From: a bacterium
GTDB lineage: Bacteria; SZUA-182; DTGQ01
Direction: 5' to 3'
Assembly (NCBI GenBank): GCA_023512255.1
Contig: JAILZY010000127.1
Coordinates: forward strand, 1-8,732
DNA: 8,732 nt
In this document: positions 1 through 8,731 of the stretch, one piece after another
Position numbering within the stretch: position 1 is the stretch's first letter
Layout: every line of letters starts with the position of its first letter
Position numbers and translations under genes: made by a program
The notes under the pieces: model-generated
Databases searched by the model: none
Told to the model about the DNA's origin: nothing
Seen by the model: only the letters and a program-made list of their open reading frames with translations

Positions 1-74
1 ACTTTCTTCTCTCTTTATTTTCTCTCCTCCCCTTTATATTTTCAACATTATTTTTTCAACATGGGGAACATCTG
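1..74. repeat. Left copy of a perfect 74-bp terminal inverted repeat
   Basis: Positions 1-74 are identical, base for base, to the reverse complement of 8658-8731. The outer 40 bp form a nearly pure pyrimidine tract on this strand, followed by a short internal repeat of TTCAACAT and the core GGAACATCTG. The window starts inside the repeat, so its true outer edge is unknown. No transposase or recombinase gene is inside the window, so I infer a dispersed genomic repeat rather than a complete mobile element. Confidence 0.9.
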
Positions 75-468: not shown

Positions 469-508
469 CTGATAAACCATAATGTTGTTTTATCATGACT
501 TATAAGCC
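453..508 (+). repeat. Imperfect tandem duplication covering the kinase start codon
   Basis: Copy 1 (453-478) and copy 2 (480-508) share TAATGTT, TTATCATGACT and ATAA-CC, differing by a 3-bp insertion and two substitutions. The ATG in copy 2 (495) starts the kinase. The equivalent ATG in copy 1 (465) overlaps the TGA of the upstream gene as ATGA, but reads into a stop after five codons. Confidence 0.75.
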
Positions 509-1712
509 TATGAGAGAGCTAGAGAGCAGGGAATACAGGATAGATAAAGGGGTTCTCCTGGAAGAAAATAGGCTGCTGAAAGAGCGTCTTAGAATCCTGG
601 AAAAATATACGGATCAACTCTTTGCTGAGTTGGAAGACAGGGTAATGAAAAATACCCGGGAGATAGCTGAAAAGAAAGTGGTTTTACAGAAGATCTTCAA
701 TCTTATGGATGGAGAGATCATTCTGGCAGACAAAAGCTATCGTATTATCGAGGCTAGTAATGTCAGTAGCGGTCATCATGCCTGGCAAGCCGCCTCAGTC
801 TGTAAGAGCGACGCGGCCTGCCAGGCTATGAAGACTGGCCGCGCCGTCAGCCAAGAGACGGCTTTGAGAGATGGCAATGATCAGCTTAGGATCATCCGGC
901 AAACAGCCTTTCCTATCTTTGACAGTAAGATGAATGAATCTTGGGGATTCGTCCAGTTTACCCAGGATATAACCTCAGTGCGGATTGAACAGGACAGGCA
1001 GATTCGATTGGAGAAGGTGCAGGCCGTCGAGAGAGTAGTAGCTCTTTTTTCCTCTTATCTCAAGACCATAGCAGAAGCTGCTCAGCATATTATTCTTGGC
1101 AAGATCGGGAAAAAATTAGGCCTAAGTAATTATGGTTTCAAGGATTTTCTCGCCTTGCTTGATCAGCAAATTATCCAAGTCCAGGATTACCTCACTGATT
1201 TATTTTTTATTCTCAACGAGAGGACCGAGGATGCGGTTTTGACCAATGTCAATGATCTTCTTCAAGTAACTCTTCGCTCGAGCAAACTGACCGCATTATC
1301 TAATAAAAATAAAAAGGTAAAGATCATTTTAGAGCTAGCCAGGGACATTCCTTTGGTTAGGGTAAGTCAAGCTCAACTAAGCAGAGTTTTTATCCACCTT
1401 ATCGACAATGCCTTTGACAGTATGCCAGCAGGTGGTGAACTGACCATTGTAACTCGAAGCAAGAGCCTTGAAGTGGAAATCGAATTTTCCGACACTGGCT
1501 TAGGAATAGCCGAGCAGATCAGAGAAAAAATCTTTGAGCCATTTCTGACCACTAAAGAAAACAGACTGGGCCTTGGCCTTTCAGTATGTAAATTTATTCT
1601 TGAAAAATATCATGGTCAAATCACCCTGCAACCTAACCCGACAGCAGGACGAACTACCTCATTTCTCGTCAGGATACCTGCTAGCCTTGATTGTCAGGCT
1701 TGCAAAAGATAG
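495..1712 (+). CDS. Soluble PAS-domain sensor histidine kinase, 405 aa
   Basis: A charged coiled coil (residues about 15-68) is followed by a PAS-like domain (about 65-163, ending FTQDIT) carrying Cys103 and Cys109. Next is a helical dimerisation segment (about 165-245) and a clear GHKL ATPase domain: N box IDNAFDSM with Asn305, G1 box DTGLGI (333-338), F box FEPF (347-350) and G2 box LGLGL (358-362). No membrane segment is present, so the signal is probably cytoplasmic. The dimerisation segment lacks a recognisable HE..NP H box; its only histidine is His197 (AQHIIL), so autophosphorylation is uncertain. No response regulator is in the window. No Shine-Dalgarno precedes ATG 495, consistent with coupling to the upstream membrane protein. 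The kinase family is secure; the ligand and partner are unknown. Confidence 0.9.
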   Translation: MTYKPMRELESREYRIDKGVLLEENRLLKERLRILEKYTDQLFAELEDRVMKNTREIAEKKVVLQKIFNLMDGEIILADKSYRIIEASNVSSGHHAWQAASVCKSDAACQAMKTGRAVSQETALRDGNDQLRIIRQTAFPIFDSKMNESWGFVQFTQDITSVRIEQDRQIRLEKVQAVERVVALFSSYLKTIAEAAQHIILGKIGKKLGLSNYGFKDFLALLDQQIIQVQDYLTDLFFILNERTEDAVLTNVNDLLQVTLRSSKLTALSNKNKKVKIILELARDIPLVRVSQAQLSRVFIHLIDNAFDSMPAGGELTIVTRSKSLEVEIEFSDTGLGIAEQIREKIFEPFLTTKENRLGLGLSVCKFILEKYHGQITLQPNPTAGRTTSFLVRIPASLDCQACKR

Positions 1713-2058: not shown

Positions 2059-2180
2059 GAATTGGAAGTGGGAAGGGAGGTGAGAATAAGGTTTTAAGGT
2101 TATATCTGACAGCCAAGCTTTATAATGGAAGATTTTTTCATGATTTGGTAGGTGGGTGGAGGCGAGAGCCTTCGAATATT

Positions 2181-2615: not shown

Positions 2616-2663
2616 ATGCGTAAGGTATTTACGGGTGTCTTGTTTAGGAGGACAACGCAATGA
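2616..2663 (+). CDS. Possible 15-codon leader ORF overlapping the first YGL gene
   Basis: ATG 2616 opens a frame encoding MRKVFTGVLFRRTTQ, whose TGA (2661-2663) overlaps the ATG of the first YGL gene as ATGA. No Shine-Dalgarno precedes it, and the YGL gene's own ribosome site lies inside it. It could couple translation, but a chance frame is equally likely. Confidence 0.2.
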   Translation: MRKVFTGVLFRRTTQ

Positions 2664-3058
2664 GAAAGAAATCTGGCCTTGTAAAGATGGTGATCATATC
2701 ATCAGTACTCATCTTTTGTTTAGCTCTAACTCCAAATTATAGCCATGCTTACTATGGCCTATACGGCGGCTACTACGGCCTGTACGGAGGCTTATACGGG
2801 CTGTATGGTCTGGGAGGATTGTACGGTGGCCTATACGGTGGGCTATATGGTCTGTATGGCTTGGGCGGACTCTATGGCTTATATGGCTTGGGCGGCTGGT
2901 ATGGAAGCGGAGTTTCTACTATGGCATCGCAGCTTGCCAGCTACGCGGTTTACTCAAGACCTTATCTGTGGGGATATGGAGTCTTGGGATCAAGTTTTCT
3001 TCCTGGTTTGTTAGGCTGGCAGGGAGTCTATGGGCCAGGAATAAACTTTTTTGATTAA
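2660..3058 (+). CDS. Exported Gly/Leu/Tyr repeat protein 1 (YGL family), 132 aa
   Basis: TAGGAGGA (2645-2652) lies 7 nt before the ATG. Residues 1-30 are a signal peptide: basic MRKKSGLVK, a hydrophobic core at 10-23, and a probable SPase I cut after SHA, before YYGLYGG. Residues 31-84 consist almost entirely of LYG, LYGG and LYGLGG units. The tail (85-132) is non-repetitive, aromatic and Gly-rich (YLWGYG, QGVYGPG) and ends NFFD. The Cys in the signal core (IFC) does not make a convincing lipobox. A periplasmic, surface or extracellular structural role is inferred from composition and export; I recognise no characterised family. It is the first of four paralogues in tandem. Leu, Tyr and Gly codons vary from unit to unit, so the repeats are old and maintained at protein level. 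Confidence 0.85.
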   Translation: MRKKSGLVKMVIISSVLIFCLALTPNYSHAYYGLYGGYYGLYGGLYGLYGLGGLYGGLYGGLYGLYGLGGLYGLYGLGGWYGSGVSTMASQLASYAVYSRPYLWGYGVLGSSFLPGLLGWQGVYGPGINFFD

Positions 3059-3086
3059 CCCTAAACACTATACAGCCTACTCAGGA

Positions 3087-3114
3087 AGACTTTAACGAGG
3101 AGACCTTAACGAGC
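3087..3114. repeat. 14-bp tandem duplication between YGL genes 1 and 2
   Basis: AGACTTTAACGAGG (3087-3100) is followed directly by AGACCTTAACGAGC (3101-3114), two changes in 14. No clear terminator lies between YGL genes 1 and 2, so they may be co-transcribed. Confidence 0.7.
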
Positions 3115-3194
3115 AAAACTCACTTTGAGCGAAAAAGTTTCAAAATTCATGCGCTATCTTCTCTAGATTATGAACCTTCCGCAGGAGGGACGAA

Positions 3195-3227
3195 ATGAGC
3201 AAGACAGGCGACAAGGTCGCTTGGTAA
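3195..3227 (+). CDS. Possible 10-codon leader peptide ahead of YGL gene 2
   Basis: AGGAGGG (3183-3189) precedes ATG 3195 by 5 nt, and the frame encodes MSKTGDKVAW before TAA (3225-3227). It ends 38 nt before the start of the second YGL gene. The ribosome site is stronger than the one of the gene it precedes, so initiation here is plausible and could modulate downstream translation. No attenuator-type hairpin or run of one amino acid is visible. Confidence 0.35.
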   Translation: MSKTGDKVAW

Positions 3228-3265
3228 GACTAAATAAAATAAAAATAAATACAGAAGGTAAGGCT

Positions 3266-3820
3266 ATGAATCAGCACAGGTTTTTGAGAGTTATGATCGT
3301 AATATTAGCCTGCGTAGTTCTTGCCTCGGCCATACCTAGCCGTGCAGATGCTTACTACGGCCTGGGATTTTATGGATTAGGATTGTATGGGCTATATGGC
3401 TTGGGGTTATATGGGTTATATGGGCTATACGGCTTGGGATACGGCCTATACTGGCCTTATAGCCTGTACTGGTGGCCTTATAGTCTGTATGGGCTCTGGC
3501 CTTATGGTTTGTACGGACTTTTCGGCTTAGGTTTATACGGGCTATATGGACTCTATGGCCTTGGAATGTATGGCCTTGGGCTTTATGGCCTCTACGGCCT
3601 GTGTGGTCTTGGTCTCTACGGCCTCGGCTTGTATGGCGGCTTGATGGGACTATACGGCCTGGCCAGCTTATATAATCTCTATGGATTAGGAGGACTTTAT
3701 GGGCTGGGAACAGGAAGTATTAGTATAAATACGACCTTTGGCGCTCCTCCTCCAGATGCTGGATCAGTAACAGGTGCACCGAGTACAGCCGCACCGACTG
3801 CGGTCGCTCCTGCAGCTTGA
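3266..3820 (+). CDS. Exported Gly/Leu/Tyr repeat protein 2 (YGL family), 184 aa, with Pro/Ala/Thr tail
   Basis: I start at ATG 3266 (GAAGG about 8 nt upstream) rather than 3170, because only this start gives a proper signal peptide: residues 1-29, basic MNQHR, a hydrophobic core at 8-21, and a cut after ADA before YYGLG. Residues 30-148 are GLG/LYG units, interrupted by an aromatic insert with three WPY motifs (63-65, 70-72, 78-80). One Cys (113) occurs in the mature chain. The tail (149-184) switches to Ser/Thr then Pro/Ala/Thr (APPPDAG, PSTAAPTAVAPAA), which resembles a flexible linker. It is the longest of the four paralogues. ILAC in the signal could be read as a weak lipobox, but the AxA-YYG junction shared with the paralogues favours SPase I. 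An exported structural role is inferred. Confidence 0.85.
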   Translation: MNQHRFLRVMIVILACVVLASAIPSRADAYYGLGFYGLGLYGLYGLGLYGLYGLYGLGYGLYWPYSLYWWPYSLYGLWPYGLYGLFGLGLYGLYGLYGLGMYGLGLYGLYGLCGLGLYGLGLYGGLMGLYGLASLYNLYGLGGLYGLGTGSISINTTFGAPPPDAGSVTGAPSTAAPTAVAPAA

Positions 3821-3840
3821 GGAAGAAGGAGTGTGTTTTC

Positions 3841-3892
3841 CTCATCTGGCCTTATAGTTATCTTTTTTGAGATGAGCGGCCAGCATTTTTTT
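3841..3892 (+). terminator. Probable intrinsic terminator after YGL gene 2
   Basis: CTGGCC (3846-3851) can pair with GGCCAG (3878-3883), followed two bases later by seven T residues (3886-3892). An alternative stem, CTCATCT (3841-3847) with AGATGAG (3870-3876), competes for the same region. The position 20 nt after the stop and the T-run support termination, though the loop is long. Confidence 0.5.
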
Positions 3893-4241
3893 CTCCTTTT
3901 CTTAAGGCGCAGGGGACGGAAGAGGGGCTTGGCGAGGGAGAACAAGTTATTTTCTAAATCACCAGGAGAGGCTATCTATGATTTAAGGGGGAAAACCACA
4001 AGCTTCGCTCCTGTCCGTCCCCTTGCCCATTTATTTAACTTTCTGAACATGGTGGTTCTTTCGCTAAGTGTGTAACCCAGGTGCGCAGCGGATCAATTAC
4101 GCTATCAATTGTAGGCGCTGACCTTTAGTAGGTGCTGACCTTGTGCCTGCCTAAGCTTGCACACTTTGTTAGCTAAAAGACCGCCTGGAGAAGGAGTTAT
4201 AATAATGTAATAATGGAATAAGATCCTATAAAAAATTCTAA

Positions 4242-4269
4242 TTGATTTTTGGGAAACTTTCAAGATAAT
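4242..4269 (+). promoter_or_regulatory. Candidate promoter for YGL gene 3
   Basis: TTGATT (4242-4247) and GATAAT (4264-4269) are 16 nt apart. Transcription would begin near 4276 and give a leader of about 105 nt. The match is fair, but AT-rich DNA gives many such pairs. Confidence 0.3.
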
Positions 4270-4332
4270 TCGATTCCATTTTCATACTTAGGGGGAATGA
4301 GATAATTTTAAGCCAGAATAAGGATTTAATGG

Positions 4333-4364
4333 AACATTTGGGGTAACTAACATTTAGGGTAACA
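4333..4364. repeat. 16-bp tandem duplication in the leader of YGL gene 3
   Basis: AACATTTGGGGTAACT (4333-4348) is followed directly by AACATTTAGGGTAACA (4349-4364), ending 18 nt before the start codon of gene 3. As it lies in the likely untranslated leader, it may affect translation or be a neutral duplication. Confidence 0.75.
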
Positions 4365-4382
4365 TTAAAGAGGATTGATATT

Positions 4383-4778
4383 ATGAAGAGATATAGATAC
4401 TTAGTCTTAGTTGGTATTTCAGGCTTGCTCCTCATCTGTGGCTTAGTATTTCCCACCTCACTTCATGCCTATTACGGAGGATATGGTGGCTGGGGGCTGT
4501 ATGGTGGACTGTACGGCTTGGGAGGGTGGTATGGTGGCTTGTATGGTGGTATGTATGGCCTCTACGGCCTAGGTGGGCTTTATGGAGGAGTGGGCCTTTA
4601 CGGTCTTGGTGGCTTATATGGCGGCGGTCTATACGGCGGATACGGGTTCAATTTAGGGCTACTGGCGCTGATGAACCCTTATTATCAGAGCAGCGGAGTA
4701 TATATGCTCTCACCTTTACTTAGTTTTGACCTGTTGTCAGATCCACTACTAGGGATGGGTATGCTCTCAATTTTATAA
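4383..4778 (+). CDS. Exported Gly/Leu/Tyr repeat protein 3 (YGL family), 131 aa
   Basis: AGAGGA (4369-4374) lies 8 nt before the ATG. The signal peptide is residues 1-29 (MKRYRY, hydrophobic core 7-22, cut after LHA before YYGGYGG). Residues 30-90 are the most Gly-rich repeat region of the four paralogues, with GGLYG, GGWYG and LYGLGG units. The tail (91-131) is hydrophobic and Met/Leu/Ser-rich (LLALMNPYYQ, SPLLSFDLLSDPLLG) and ends GMLSIL. This hydrophobic end could bury in a membrane, a partner protein or a fibre core. No lipobox or sortase signal is seen. Function is not recognised; a secreted structural role is inferred from composition and from the paralogues on both sides. Confidence 0.85.
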   Translation: MKRYRYLVLVGISGLLLICGLVFPTSLHAYYGGYGGWGLYGGLYGLGGWYGGLYGGMYGLYGLGGLYGGVGLYGLGGLYGGGLYGGYGFNLGLLALMNPYYQSSGVYMLSPLLSFDLLSDPLLGMGMLSIL

Positions 4779-4804
4779 ATTTAAATTATAATATATTTAT
4801 ATTT

Positions 4805-4862
4805 TTGCGTTTTTTATAACTATTTTTATAACTGATCGAAATATAAATAACAAGGAGGTGAT
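4805..4862 (+). promoter_or_regulatory. Candidate promoter and orphan perfect Shine-Dalgarno ahead of YGL gene 4
   Basis: TTGCGT (4805-4810) and TATAAC (4827-4832) are 16 nt apart; a 12-bp tandem repeat (TTTTTATAACTA and TTTTTATAACTG, 4811-4834) supplies a second TATAAC. AAGGAGGTGAT (4852-4862) is the full complement of a typical 16S rRNA 3' end, yet no ATG, GTG or TTG lies at normal spacing; gene 4 starts 111 nt further on. It may be a ribosome standby site or the remnant of a lost gene start. Confidence 0.35.
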
Positions 4863-4973
4863 TTTACATAAAAATATAAATCTCATGTATTCATTGTTTT
4901 TTAACAAATTTTTAATCATCATCAGAACATTGATTGCATGAGTCGTGATTGTAAGGAAAAGGAGGCTTTTGAG

Positions 4974-5363
4974 ATGAAAGGGAAATTTTTATTGAGCATC
5001 TTGACGATAGCTATGGTTTTAATCATCGGATTGTCAAGAACATCTAAGGTTGAGGCTTATTATGGTTTAGGTCTGTATGGCCTCTACGGTCTCTATGGCC
5101 TGGGCGGTCTCTATGGCTTAGGTCTTGGCCTGTACGGTCTCTATGGCCTGGGCGGTCTCTATGGCCTTGGAATGTATAGCCTCTACAGCCCGTTCAGTTC
5201 CTTTAATATGTATTATCAAATAGATACCGGAACAGGCCTTACCTATCAGGTCCCATTCATGCTGGCTGTTCCCTATATAGGTATCTCATCTCTCTATAAG
5301 CAGCTTTTCCCAAATCTTTTTAATCCCTCTACTACGGTACCATCGACTACTACCACAATATGA
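4974..5363 (+). CDS. Exported Gly/Leu/Tyr repeat protein 4 (YGL family), 129 aa, with Thr-rich end
   Basis: I start at ATG 4974, with AAGGAGG (4958-4964) 9 nt upstream, rather than the in-frame ATG 4938, because the signal peptide begins here: MKGK, hydrophobic core 5-19, and a cut after VEA (residue 28) before YYGLGLYG. Residues 29-66 are LYG/LGG units, including a recent in-frame duplication of a 16-residue unit. The rest (67-129) has an Asn/Gln/Thr-containing part (NMYYQIDTGTG), a hydrophobic part and a Thr/Pro-rich end (PSTTVPSTTTTI). It is the last gene of the cluster, followed by a strong terminator about 70 nt downstream. An exported structural role is inferred; I recognise no family. 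Confidence 0.85.
   Translation: MKGKFLLSILTIAMVLIIGLSRTSKVEAYYGLGLYGLYGLYGLGGLYGLGLGLYGLYGLGGLYGLGMYSLYSPFSSFNMYYQIDTGTGLTYQVPFMLAVPYIGISSLYKQLFPNLFNPSTTVPSTTTTI
5079..5174 (+). repeat. 48-bp in-frame tandem duplication within YGL gene 4
   Basis: Unit 1 (5079-5126) and unit 2 (5127-5174) share an exact 33-bp block (5085-5117 and 5133-5165). It encodes the same YGLYGLGGLYG stretch with identical codons, unlike the codon-diverse repeats in the other paralogues, so it is a young duplication. Confidence 0.8.
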
Positions 5364-5471: not shown

Positions 5472-5840
5472 GATGGCCAGAGGGAAAGTGCAGATGTTCC
5501 ACAGGGAAAAAAACAATAGTTGAAAGTGGGAGATACAAGCGAAAAAAGCCTCTTTTTCACCCCGGAAAAAGATCGTACTAGGATTGGATATAAATGGGTA
5601 ACATCTGGGAAAAGTGCTTTGTTGTTTGCTGCCTTCCCCGAGGGGGCTAAGAAGCAGGGGGATATGCCTTGAGCAGGGAAGGAAGTATGCCAAGAGATAA
5701 GGCAAGTCTATACCACTGGGGCAGGATTTTTGCTTACCCTGCAAGTTAATTTAATTGCTCCAGCCGAGGCTTTAAGCCAATGCTCATGGCCATTTTTAGT
5801 GAAAAGTCAGCTAAATCACCATTCCGTCACTTTCGCCAAA
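5472..5840. other. Convergent intergenic region with a degenerate copy of the end-repeat core
   Basis: No supportable gene is seen. CAGATGTTCC (5491-5500), the core of the terminal repeat, is followed by GAAAAAA, CAATAGTTGAAA and similar bases, which resemble the terminal repeat over about 35 bp with small gaps. AACATCTG recurs in the opposite orientation at 5600-5607. Together they could bound a decayed element of about 120 bp. Confidence 0.4.
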
Positions 5841-5940: not shown

Positions 5941-6372
5941 TTATCTTGACGTGCAGCCACAGCAAGACCCGGCGGGGCCAAGGCCACCTATCCTTGAAGC
6001 TGCAATGAGGCCGGCCTTGACGATCAAGTCTGCTGGAATTGTTTCATATATCTGTCCTTCAACAGTAATAGTTCTACACTCCTCATCAAGGCAAGGCGAA
6101 GAGCAGCAGTAGCTTTGCCCAACCTGTGCTCCTAGCCATTCTTCAAGAGGACGATTATCAATCCAGATACGGTTTGAGGCCAAGGGATCTTTAATAAATG
6201 TGCTGACATCGATTATTCCTTTTTCCAAGGTAACCTCAAGTCCAAGGGGGGCCAGAGCCTGCTGGAGAGTGGACAATGCCTTTTCAACTTCTTTTTCTGT
6301 TGCTCCACAGCGCTCACAGGTATGGCCATTTTCATCGACGAGACGTTGCCATTTTATGGTAAGACCTCTCAT
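5941..6372 (-). CDS. DUF2703 family Cys-rich protein, 143 aa
   Basis: The start at 6372 is chosen because AAGGAGG lies 10 nt before that ATG; a longer frame to 6408 lacks a ribosome site. The sequence follows the DUF2703 pattern as I remember it: IKWQRLVDENGHTCERCG at the N-terminus, KDPLASNRIWIDNRPLEEWLG at 61-81 and GQSYCC at 85-90. Nine cysteines are present: a CxxC pair at 19 and 22, Cys89, 90, 94 and 99, and a C-terminal CCGC (137, 138, 140). Metal or thiol chemistry in the cytoplasm is likely, but the family function is uncharacterised to my knowledge. It follows the thioredoxin-like gene by 40 nt on the same strand, so the two are probably one operon acting on the same thiol or metal substrate. 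Confidence 0.85.
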   Translation of the reverse strand: MRGLTIKWQRLVDENGHTCERCGATEKEVEKALSTLQQALAPLGLEVTLEKGIIDVSTFIKDPLASNRIWIDNRPLEEWLGAQVGQSYCCSSPCLDEECRTITVEGQIYETIPADLIVKAGLIAASRIGGLGPAGSCCGCTSR

Positions 6373-6412
6373 GGGTAAAATTCCTCCTTGAAGATTAGAA
6401 AAAAACAATAGC

Positions 6413-6679
6413 CTATTTTATCATAAGATCAGGATTTTTGAATAAAATTAGGATTTTTTGAATCTCGGCCACGGAAGCCACTCTACCTGCAATTCTGATC
6501 TGACCATCAATAGCCAAGGCAGGAGTCATAACCGCCGTACCGAATCGCCTAATAGTACCAGTATCCACCACTTTTTCGATCTTATAGATGAGGCCAAGAA
6601 CTCTAGCCGCAGATTTTGCATTTTCTGCCAGCCTTCGGCATTCCATATCGCTGGGGCCCAAAATCTGTATCTTCTTCAT
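6413..6679 (-). CDS. Small thioredoxin/glutaredoxin-like protein with a single active-site Cys, 88 aa
   Basis: The frame begins MKKIQILGP, typical of small redox-active disulfide proteins (TIGR00412-like), and keeps the cis-proline motif MTPAL (51-55), VDTGTIRRFG and a GRVASVAEI end, matching the usual family length of about 75-90. Where such proteins have CxxC, this one reads SDMEC: the first Cys is Asp11 and the second is Cys14, its only cysteine. It should be unable to form an intramolecular disulfide and may work as a monothiol or be a non-redox binder. It heads a two-gene operon with the Cys-rich DUF2703 gene 40 nt downstream. The ribosome site is weak. The fold call is firm; the substrate is unknown. 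Confidence 0.82.
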   Translation of the reverse strand: MKKIQILGPSDMECRRLAENAKSAARVLGLIYKIEKVVDTGTIRRFGTAVMTPALAIDGQIRIAGRVASVAEIQKILILFKNPDLMIK

Positions 6680-7348: not shown

Positions 7349-8521
7349 TTACAATCTTGATGGCTTGCTCCATCTGAGGCTCAAGGTATTATCCCTGCCA
7401 ACTTCTATTTCTGTCCCCAATTTTTGCCCCTCTCTAGTTAGGACCTCGCTCAACCAGCGGGCATCAGCTTCTGAGGCTAGATTTACCCTGAAATTTTTAA
7501 TCTGAGTTGGAATCATGGATAGAGAAACAAGCTTTCCAGTTAGGGGATCAAGCCTAGGGAAAAACATCAAGCCTAAATCACTCCTGAAATGTTCATGGCC
7601 ACCGATGCCCTCATAATCATCCAAAAAATTACCACAGCCGTAGATTATCAGCTTGTCTTGATAAACCTCTATTCCCTTTACATGGTGGGAGGAATGGCCG
7701 TGGATAATATCAACCCCTGCCTCATCGATCAGCCTGTGGGCAAATTCTCTTTGCTCACGGCTAATCTCATAACCCCAGTTTCCACCCCAATGGATCGAGG
7801 CAATTGTGATATCCTTCGGCTGTTTCACCTGCTGGATATTTTCCTGAATATCTAGGATCGTCTCTTTCGAAAGCTCCCTGAGCAGCCACAGGCCAGGCTT
7901 GTCTTCAGAGGCGGCCCAGCTAAGCGGTATTCCGCTATCTGGTGAGCCAAAGGAAAACACCACTACCCTCCCTTTGCTCCTGACTTTCATCACTGCCGGG
8001 CTCTGCGCCTCTTTTAAATTTTTGCCCACTCCGACACCGTGCACCTTAGCTTTCTTTAGGGTTCTGAGGGTTTCGGTAAGACCATGATATCCCCAGTCAA
8101 GTATATGGTTATTGGCCAGGGCACAGCAATCTATCCCGGCTGCGGTCAGACAGGGGATATTTCCCGGATTCATCCGATAGTGTATGTCCTTGCCCTGCCA
8201 ATAGTCGCCACTTTTGGTTATGGTGGTCTCAAGGTTGATGATTTTAACATCCGGCTTAGTCCGCTCCCATTCGGCCAGAGCATCTCCCCAGATATAAGAG
8301 AAACTGATAGGCTGAGGAATAGGGCCGTTCGCCTCTTCGGCAATTTCCACATATCCTCTGGCATCTCTCATGTATGGCTCATAGAGAATAGGATCGCTGG
8401 GATGAGGCATAACCTGGTCAATGCCTCTGCCGATCATGACATCGCCGCACAGAAAGAGCGTGATGAGATTAGCCGCTCCCCGGGCTGAGTGGTTAGTATC
8501 TTGAGATTCGATATTTTTCAT
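7349..8521 (-). CDS. CapA/PGA_cap family metallophosphoesterase-like protein, 390 aa
   Basis: The PGA_cap motif order is intact: GDVMIGRG (26-33), NLETTIT (96-102), LANNHILDWG (135-144), IHWGGNWG (243-250), HGHSSHHVKG (274-283) and GCGNFLDDYEG (295-305). Candidate metal ligands are Asp27, Asn138, His139, His244 and the His275-280 cluster. The family includes CapA/PgsA of poly-gamma-glutamate capsule synthesis, but many members stand alone with unknown roles. No signal peptide or membrane anchor is seen: the N-terminus (MKNIESQDTNHSARGAAN) is polar, so this copy looks cytoplasmic. No capB/capC-type partners are in the window, so capsule synthesis should not be assumed. The ribosome site is AGGA about 10 nt before ATG 8521. 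The length fits the family. Confidence 0.88.
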   Translation of the reverse strand: MKNIESQDTNHSARGAANLITLFLCGDVMIGRGIDQVMPHPSDPILYEPYMRDARGYVEIAEEANGPIPQPISFSYIWGDALAEWERTKPDVKIINLETTITKSGDYWQGKDIHYRMNPGNIPCLTAAGIDCCALANNHILDWGYHGLTETLRTLKKAKVHGVGVGKNLKEAQSPAVMKVRSKGRVVVFSFGSPDSGIPLSWAASEDKPGLWLLRELSKETILDIQENIQQVKQPKDITIASIHWGGNWGYEISREQREFAHRLIDEAGVDIIHGHSSHHVKGIEVYQDKLIIYGCGNFLDDYEGIGGHEHFRSDLGLMFFPRLDPLTGKLVSLSMIPTQIKNFRVNLASEADARWLSEVLTREGQKLGTEIEVGRDNTLSLRWSKPSRL

Positions 8522-8657: not shown

Positions 8658-8731
8658 CAGATGTTCCCCATGTTGAAAAAATAATGTTGAAAATATAAAG
8701 GGGAGGAGAGAAAATAAAGAGAGAAGAAAGT
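8658..8731. repeat. Right copy of the perfect 74-bp terminal inverted repeat
   Basis: This is the exact reverse complement of 1-74; similarity stops abruptly at its inner edge (8657). The last base of the window (8732) lies beyond the repeat's match, so the repeat may continue outside the window at both ends. Read outwards it starts CAGATGTTCC and ends in a purine tract. Confidence 0.9.

Follow-up and report, generated by a model that had tools for sequence, protein, structure and literature searches.

Four tandem genes in the 8,732-nucleotide window analysed here (the whole of contig JAILZY010000127.1, from a bacterium of the SZUA-182 lineage) encode small exported proteins built largely of Leu-Tyr-Gly (LYG) repeats. 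By sequence comparison, this cluster is one locus of an order-specific, genome-dispersed paralogous family with recurrent C-terminal modules. We propose, with belief and doubt evenly balanced, that the LYG family is an exported, self-associating coat or matrix that works like the suckerins of squid. Modular structural materials rich in Gly and Tyr are known from animals; judged by the databases searched, a version that is bacterial, occurs across an order and combines barrel tails with a shared non-initiating Shine-Dalgarno (SD) leader would be new.

The LYG genes, their family and its tail modules

The window corresponds to contig C146 in an assembly of 3.83 Mb that is 97% complete (genome G000). 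The original prediction, made from the letters of the window, described four tandem genes for small signal-peptide proteins with repeats, and it was borne out: the four plus-strand open reading frames lie where it placed them and are real genes, each with its own SD site (Table 1), although two starts had to be moved. The start of gene 2 was reset from an upstream ATG at 3170 to 3266 (SD AGAAGGT; signal peptide from MNQHRFLRVM) and that of gene 4 from 4938 to 4974 (AAGGAGG just 5ˊ), because the SD sites and signal peptides support these positions and the starts of the longest frames lie too far upstream. All four proteins begin with what appears to be a Sec signal peptide, which ends in A-YYG (the hyphen marks the junction); here and for the paralogues, signal peptides were judged by eye from a positive N-terminus, a hydrophobic core and an A-x-A-like end. 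Given intergenic gaps of 207, 562 and 195 nt, the genes are neighbours and not a tight operon.

Gly, Leu and Tyr make up 53-74% of the mature chains of the four window proteins, which are 101-155 residues long and contain one or two charged residues each. The triplets LYG and MYG occur 10, 18, 9 and 7 times in genes 1-4, against means of 1.2, 1.9, 1.6 and 0.7 in shuffled chains; since the highest counts in 2000 shuffles of the same residues were 6, 7, 7 and 5, the observed numbers exceed all of them, in agreement with the earlier claim that the mature chains are mostly LYG- and LYGLGG-type units. Repeats of 3 and 4 residues are intermixed in no fixed register and show no regular proline pattern, and in a structural model of gene 4 they are without structure (predicted local distance difference test, pLDDT, ~45), while the tail of this protein, tail A, is modelled weakly. 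The 44 triplets of the window are encoded by 28 distinct 9-mers that include each of the six Leu codons; because the synonymous codons are so diverse, the repeat is read as kept by selection on the protein. Recent slippage or duplication at the DNA level was rejected as its source on the same ground.

The family is defined by a signal peptide ending in A-YYG or A-YYS, followed by LYG/LYGG repeats, a combination present in all four window genes and in nearly all paralogues. About 27 distinct LYG proteins were found in G000; almost every one has a signal peptide and the A-YY junction. One paralogue with a C-terminal domain gave 33 matches across many contigs when used as a query against its own genome. 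Such counts rest on searches and on genome stretches and are lower bounds, the more so for the ~27 genes because several of these sit at contig ends. The four-gene cluster of the original prediction is thus real, but it is no island and represents one of many loci. Singletons without signal peptides had been named as homologues that would speak against that prediction; most homologues are indeed single and dispersed, yet they carry signal peptides.

Among nine genomes of the class, the LYG repeat was found in five that belong to one order (G000-G004) and not in four genomes of sister families. G004 is assigned to the Zodletone spring metagenome-assembled genome (MAG) JAFGSM01, from a sulfidic spring, because the loci are identical. 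Outside the class the repeat was sought by a DNA pattern for LYGLGGLYG alone, which among named genomes returned family members in the Zodletone MAG only, the remaining reading frames looking unrelated or due to chance. A profile of the barrel domain described below, searched against 386 genomes, gave weak partial matches in just two of the 377 outside the class, and the barrel alignment found no confirmed relative among the matches listed in collections of genome contigs (best 80 candidates) and viral contigs. There was no match for gene 4 in plasmids (tblastn), for the LYG family in Pfam, NCBIfam or PHROGs, or for the barrel profile and gene 1 in a sequence search of the PDB. Literature searches found no bacterial LYG-repeat system.

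Tail A is a module of 46 residues with the consensus SPFGLQNMYY..TG.GLTYQVPFLQIAPLLGIAGLYN.LFP.LFNP. It is conserved in 21 proteins including that of gene 4, was found in G000, G001, G002 and G004, and was not found in G003. Genes 1-3 have neither tail A nor a barrel; signal peptide and repeat are common to all four. The second recurrent module, an avidin-like barrel domain of 120 residues with the motif AEQAGTWxGxW, occurs in ~50 proteins, a few of these without LYG repeats, and forms the C-terminal end of many paralogues and of none of the window genes. AlphaFold predicts an eight-stranded antiparallel barrel for the 120-residue domain (pLDDT 91), nearest to designed barrels and streptavidin (Z 12-13.7, template modelling (TM) score up to 0.67; streptavidin monomer 4jnj, TM 0.66, Z 12.4). 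Ends rich in Pro, Ala and Thr (P/A/T) like that of gene 2 recur, by eye, in paralogues on C46, G001:C79 and G002:C47, and phmmer found no homologue for the gene 2 tail itself. The earlier description of four unrelated tails therefore holds for the aromatic tail of gene 1 and the hydrophobic tail of gene 3, for which no convincing relative was found, but not for gene 4, whose tail is shared with 20 other proteins, nor, by eye, for the P/A/T ends. Tails and barrels are under purifying selection: the ratio of nonsynonymous to synonymous substitution (dN/dS) over them is 0.04-0.14 in six orthologue pairs between G000 and G001, a genome of the same genus, and about 0.10 for tail A in one pair.

Synteny is kept at several loci. 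A LYG/tail A gene adjoins an apparent CTP synthase gene (pyrG) in G000:C22 and G004:C251 and the same methyltransferase gene in G000:C22 and G001:C13, and a subtilase gene (74% identity) adjoins LYG-barrel genes in G000:C160 and G001:C5. The protein at G000:C122 (L182 1243-4497) joins two cohesins and HYR domains to a C-terminal FYGGLYGGIFGGLYG LYG/aromatic segment and is flanked by two dockerin proteins (L182 104-1159 and 5036-6400). Its architecture suggests an extracellular site, with LYG segments as an association tag, and this cohesin-dockerin set, outside cellulosome contexts, may plug into LYG material. The LYG/tail A protein of G000:C157 (L189 6261-6986) has a CxxCH motif (CTQCH) in its C-terminal part that may be a site for c-type haem. 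Other exported low-charge proteins rich in Pro, Ala, Tyr and Ser were seen in L026, L056, L022, L192, L193, L215 and L189 (4286-5266), some of them with a barrel.

A Shine-Dalgarno-like element in the leaders

K-mer counts in 24 leaders of G000 brought out AAGGAGGTG, which stands far from the SD of the gene itself and is called the orphan SD here. Between 230 and 50 nt upstream of the start, GGAGGTG is present in 34 of the 59 LYG genes, at distances of 80-190 nt from the start codon, and in 4 of 303 others (Fisher 2.4e-27); exact AAGGAGGTG precedes 22 of 59 and 2 of 303, respectively. The enrichment persists when genes preceded by less than 100 nt of intergenic DNA are excluded (31/52 against 4/206, p 6e-22), and in four genomes outside the discovery set 21 of 36 LYG genes have GGAGGTG. 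These p-values are too small, since orthologues are not independent, though the contrast is still large. All four of the other genes with GGAGGTG encode exported proteins, one of which is a family member. Both orthologues hold GGAGGTG in 10 of 11 pairs, picked among genes having the element, and the rest of the orthologous leaders is 48-72% alike with many gaps.

A start codon follows 4-12 nt 3ˊ of GGAGGTG in 2 of the 34 cases, whereas 12.6 such cases would be expected for these leaders (p 3e-5); because start codons are avoided downstream of it, the element looks like an SD that is selected against initiating translation. It was also considered as belonging to an upstream reading frame, which was rejected as there is no start codon in place and none is conserved, and as a CsrA site, which was rejected as CsrA was not found in the five genomes. 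Within the window a perfect copy precedes gene 4, a doubtful one lies far upstream of gene 1 (Table 1), and genes 2 and 3 have no leader element. The set with the leader element may extend beyond the LYG proteins, because L193 and L215, exported low-charge proteins outside the LYG set, carry an orphan SD.

Neighbouring genes and other features of the window

The histidine kinase-like gene upstream of the cluster is 37% identical in its N-terminal part, over 249 aa, to a PAS protein encoded directly 5ˊ of LYG genes in G002:C47, a sequence likeness that hints at regulation of the LYG genes. This neighbour and the shared 5ˊ leader element are additions to the original account. After the kinase gene and before LYG gene 1 there are two strong hairpins, at 2003-2058 (CTGAAAGGCCCC...GGGGCCTTTCAG) and 2186-2207 (GGCGGGACAGTAATGTCCCGCC); promoter and terminator scans gave no excess over chance, and Rfam had no match in the window. 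On the minus strand, adjacent DUF2703 and Thioredoxin_3 genes occupy 5941-6679, and 7349-8521 encodes a CapA-like PGA_cap protein that is matched in G001, G002 and G003; no LYG gene was seen next to the match in G001:C78. A 74-bp perfect inverted repeat forms both ends of the window (1-74 and 8658-8731). Contig C22, which carries another LYG/tail A gene, ends in 76 bp of the same sequence (L217 8886-8961), so at the window ends the assembly was apparently broken by a dispersed repeat. A 59-bp intergenic stretch at ~5510-5568 is also a dispersed repeat, recurring with 97% identity on contig C109 (L194 3685-3743).

Table 1. Positions of the LYG genes and associated features in the window.
Feature	Position	Strand	Description
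Histidine kinase-like gene	495..1712	+	HATPase domain; upstream of the LYG cluster
Candidate further copy of the orphan SD	2074..2082	+	AGGGAGGTG; 586 nt 5ˊ of gene 1; one mismatch, and matches this loose are no more frequent than in shuffles; significance doubtful
LYG gene 1	2660..3058	+	132 aa; signal peptide MRKKSGLVKMVIISSVLIFCLALTPNYSHA; mature chain from 2750; aromatic tail ~2906-3055
LYG gene 2	3266..3820	+	184 aa; signal peptide; mature chain from 3353; P/A/T-rich tail ~3707-3817
LYG gene 3	4383..4778	+	131 aa; signal peptide; mature chain from 4470; hydrophobic tail ~4647-4775
Orphan SD element	4852..4860	+	AAGGAGGTG; perfect copy, 122 nt 5ˊ of gene 4 start; no start codon 4-12 nt after
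LYG gene 4	4974..5363	+	129 aa; signal peptide; mature chain from 5058; tail A, then short Thr-rich end
Tail A module	5187..5327	+	SPFSSFNMYYQIDTGTGLTYQVPFMLAVPYIGISSLYKQLFPNLFNP; in gene 4; conserved in 21 proteins of the order

Proposed material and comparison with known systems

From export signal, composition, modularity, selection and leader we infer how the LYG proteins may assemble, where they may do so and how their genes may be regulated. Omp85/BamA is present in the organism, so exported proteins should meet a periplasm and an outer membrane. Sec would carry the LYG proteins across the inner membrane, after which the nearly uncharged LYG/LYGG chains, having no fold of their own, would associate with one another by Tyr stacking, the packing of Leu and backbone contacts at Gly. 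They would thereby form a coat or matrix of gel-like nature, with the cell surface as its most likely site. The tails (tail A, avidin-like barrel, P/A/T ends and the cohesin/HYR scaffold) may anchor or decorate it. The orphan SD would serve as a non-initiating 30S-binding site in the 5ˊ leader and probably stabilises the mRNAs of abundant proteins or increases their loading with ribosomes. A secreted material with a common repeat core and differing tails, as originally predicted, remains the best reading, with no known family matching, and its restriction to four genes was too narrow. Its fullest form, which we put forward tentatively and hold to be less probable than the coat or matrix as such, is a suckerin-like self-assembling material that evolved independently in an uncultured bacterial order and in which tens of dispersed genes and their tails build a modular surface matrix and a non-initiating, 16S-pairing leader co-ordinates them post-transcriptionally.

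Several observations weigh against this proposal. Suckerins alternate their Gly/Tyr blocks with Ala/His-rich crystalline β-sheet blocks that the LYG proteins do not have, the cohesin protein with a LYG segment was met in a single instance, and 25 of the 59 LYG genes are without the exact leader element (GGAGGTG). RNase J (TIGR00649) is below the cut-off in all five genomes and above it in 9 of 14 control genomes; protection from RNase J was accordingly rejected as the role of the element.

The main rival, which we regard as unlikely, is an inclusion envelope: LYG proteins would coat periplasmic or extracellular elemental sulfur, or another hydrophobic store, as the sulfur globule proteins of Allochromatium vinosum do. 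The latter are small, extremely hydrophobic, Sec-exported and structural (PMC10386293), and the LYG proteins resemble them in extreme hydrophobicity and in an apparent Sec signal peptide; the relative G004 comes from a sulfidic spring. However, the prolines of sulfur globule proteins are regularly spaced and their genes number one to six per genome (PMC10386293), whereas the LYG repeats lack such prolines and the family has ~27 genes, and the cohesin/HYR/LYG protein points outside the cell. The missing proline pattern makes membership in the sulfur globule proteins less likely, but not a role in coating sulfur. We think it quite unlikely that the family is a secreted ligand-binding set in which function resides in the barrels or other tails, with the LYG region as no more than a sticky tether or spacer. 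The barrel is avidin/lipocalin-like, a fold that often binds small molecules, and is also found in proteins without LYG repeats, but a barrel is missing from the window proteins and from many others, and in these the repeat is most of the chain and is kept at the protein level.

A functional amyloid fibre with curli-like export, LYG repeats forming the amyloid core and barrel tails the caps or adhesins, appears about as unlikely. Exported repeat proteins would suit it, as would the passage of a suckerin-derived peptide from 3-10 helix to β-sheet (PMC6839752) and partial CsgG-like matches in four of the five genomes. Curli-like export is unsupported, though: these CsgG-like matches are weak and none was seen near LYG genes, nor was any curli-type gene seen beside the latter. 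Repeats of 3 and 4 residues without a fixed register are unlike those of curlin. Functionless, expanding low-complexity DNA whose protein reading arose by chance is the least credible explanation and very improbable: orthologues differ in repeat number and many of the LYG genes are at the ends of contigs, but the diverse synonymous codons, the dN/dS of the attached modules, the synteny beside pyrG and the subtilase gene and the conserved signal peptides and leaders already contradict it.

If the LYG proteins assemble, they would be a bacterial counterpart of squid-tooth material, naturally split into small exported monomers with varied tails, and would open structure-property rules and surface display to testing in laboratory strains. 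The leader element raises the separate question whether bacteria control the output of a whole family of structural proteins through SD sites that do not initiate translation. The family also offers a way to study the surface of cells in a lineage known here from MAGs.

Suckerins are a large paralogous family. They share with the LYG proteins Gly/Tyr-rich blocks with GGLYGG units and the organisation as many exported, modular paralogues; suckerins are animal proteins, whereas the signal peptides of the LYG proteins are bacterial and their tails include tail A and barrels. Because the similarity lies in composition, we assume convergence and not homology. The disordered block of squid ring teeth proteins holds STGTLSYGYGGLYGGLYGGLGYG, including GGLYGGLYGG (PMC6393770), and the suckerin-19 octapeptide GLYGGYGV gels in water, its conversion to β-sheet involving Tyr stacking (PMC6839752). 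The nearest bacterial analogue is the sulfur globule proteins SgpA-D of Allochromatium and Beggiatoa, which the cited portion of PMC10386293 likens to keratins and plant cell wall proteins and for which it describes no tail modules like those of the LYG family. With avidin and streptavidin, the C-terminal domain of the paralogues (not of the window genes) has in common the eight-stranded barrel fold and a GTW motif near its start, but identity is 10-18%, no sequence-level match was found in PDB or Pfam, and de novo and other barrels score as well as streptavidin.

For the leader, the known system is the STAB-SD of cry3A from Bacillus thuringiensis, whose main transcript starts 129 nt 5ˊ of the start codon; the SD-like sequence near the transcript 5ˊ end pairs with 16S rRNA without initiating translation, serves a very abundant protein and blocks RNase J1 (PMC4113751). 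The LYG leader element shares the feature of an SD-like, non-initiating site ~100-200 nt upstream of the start. STAB-SD acts through the block of RNase J1, an enzyme type not over the cut-off in the five LYG genomes, and the LYG element, unlike that of cry3A, is common to a whole gene family in an outer-membrane-bearing lineage.

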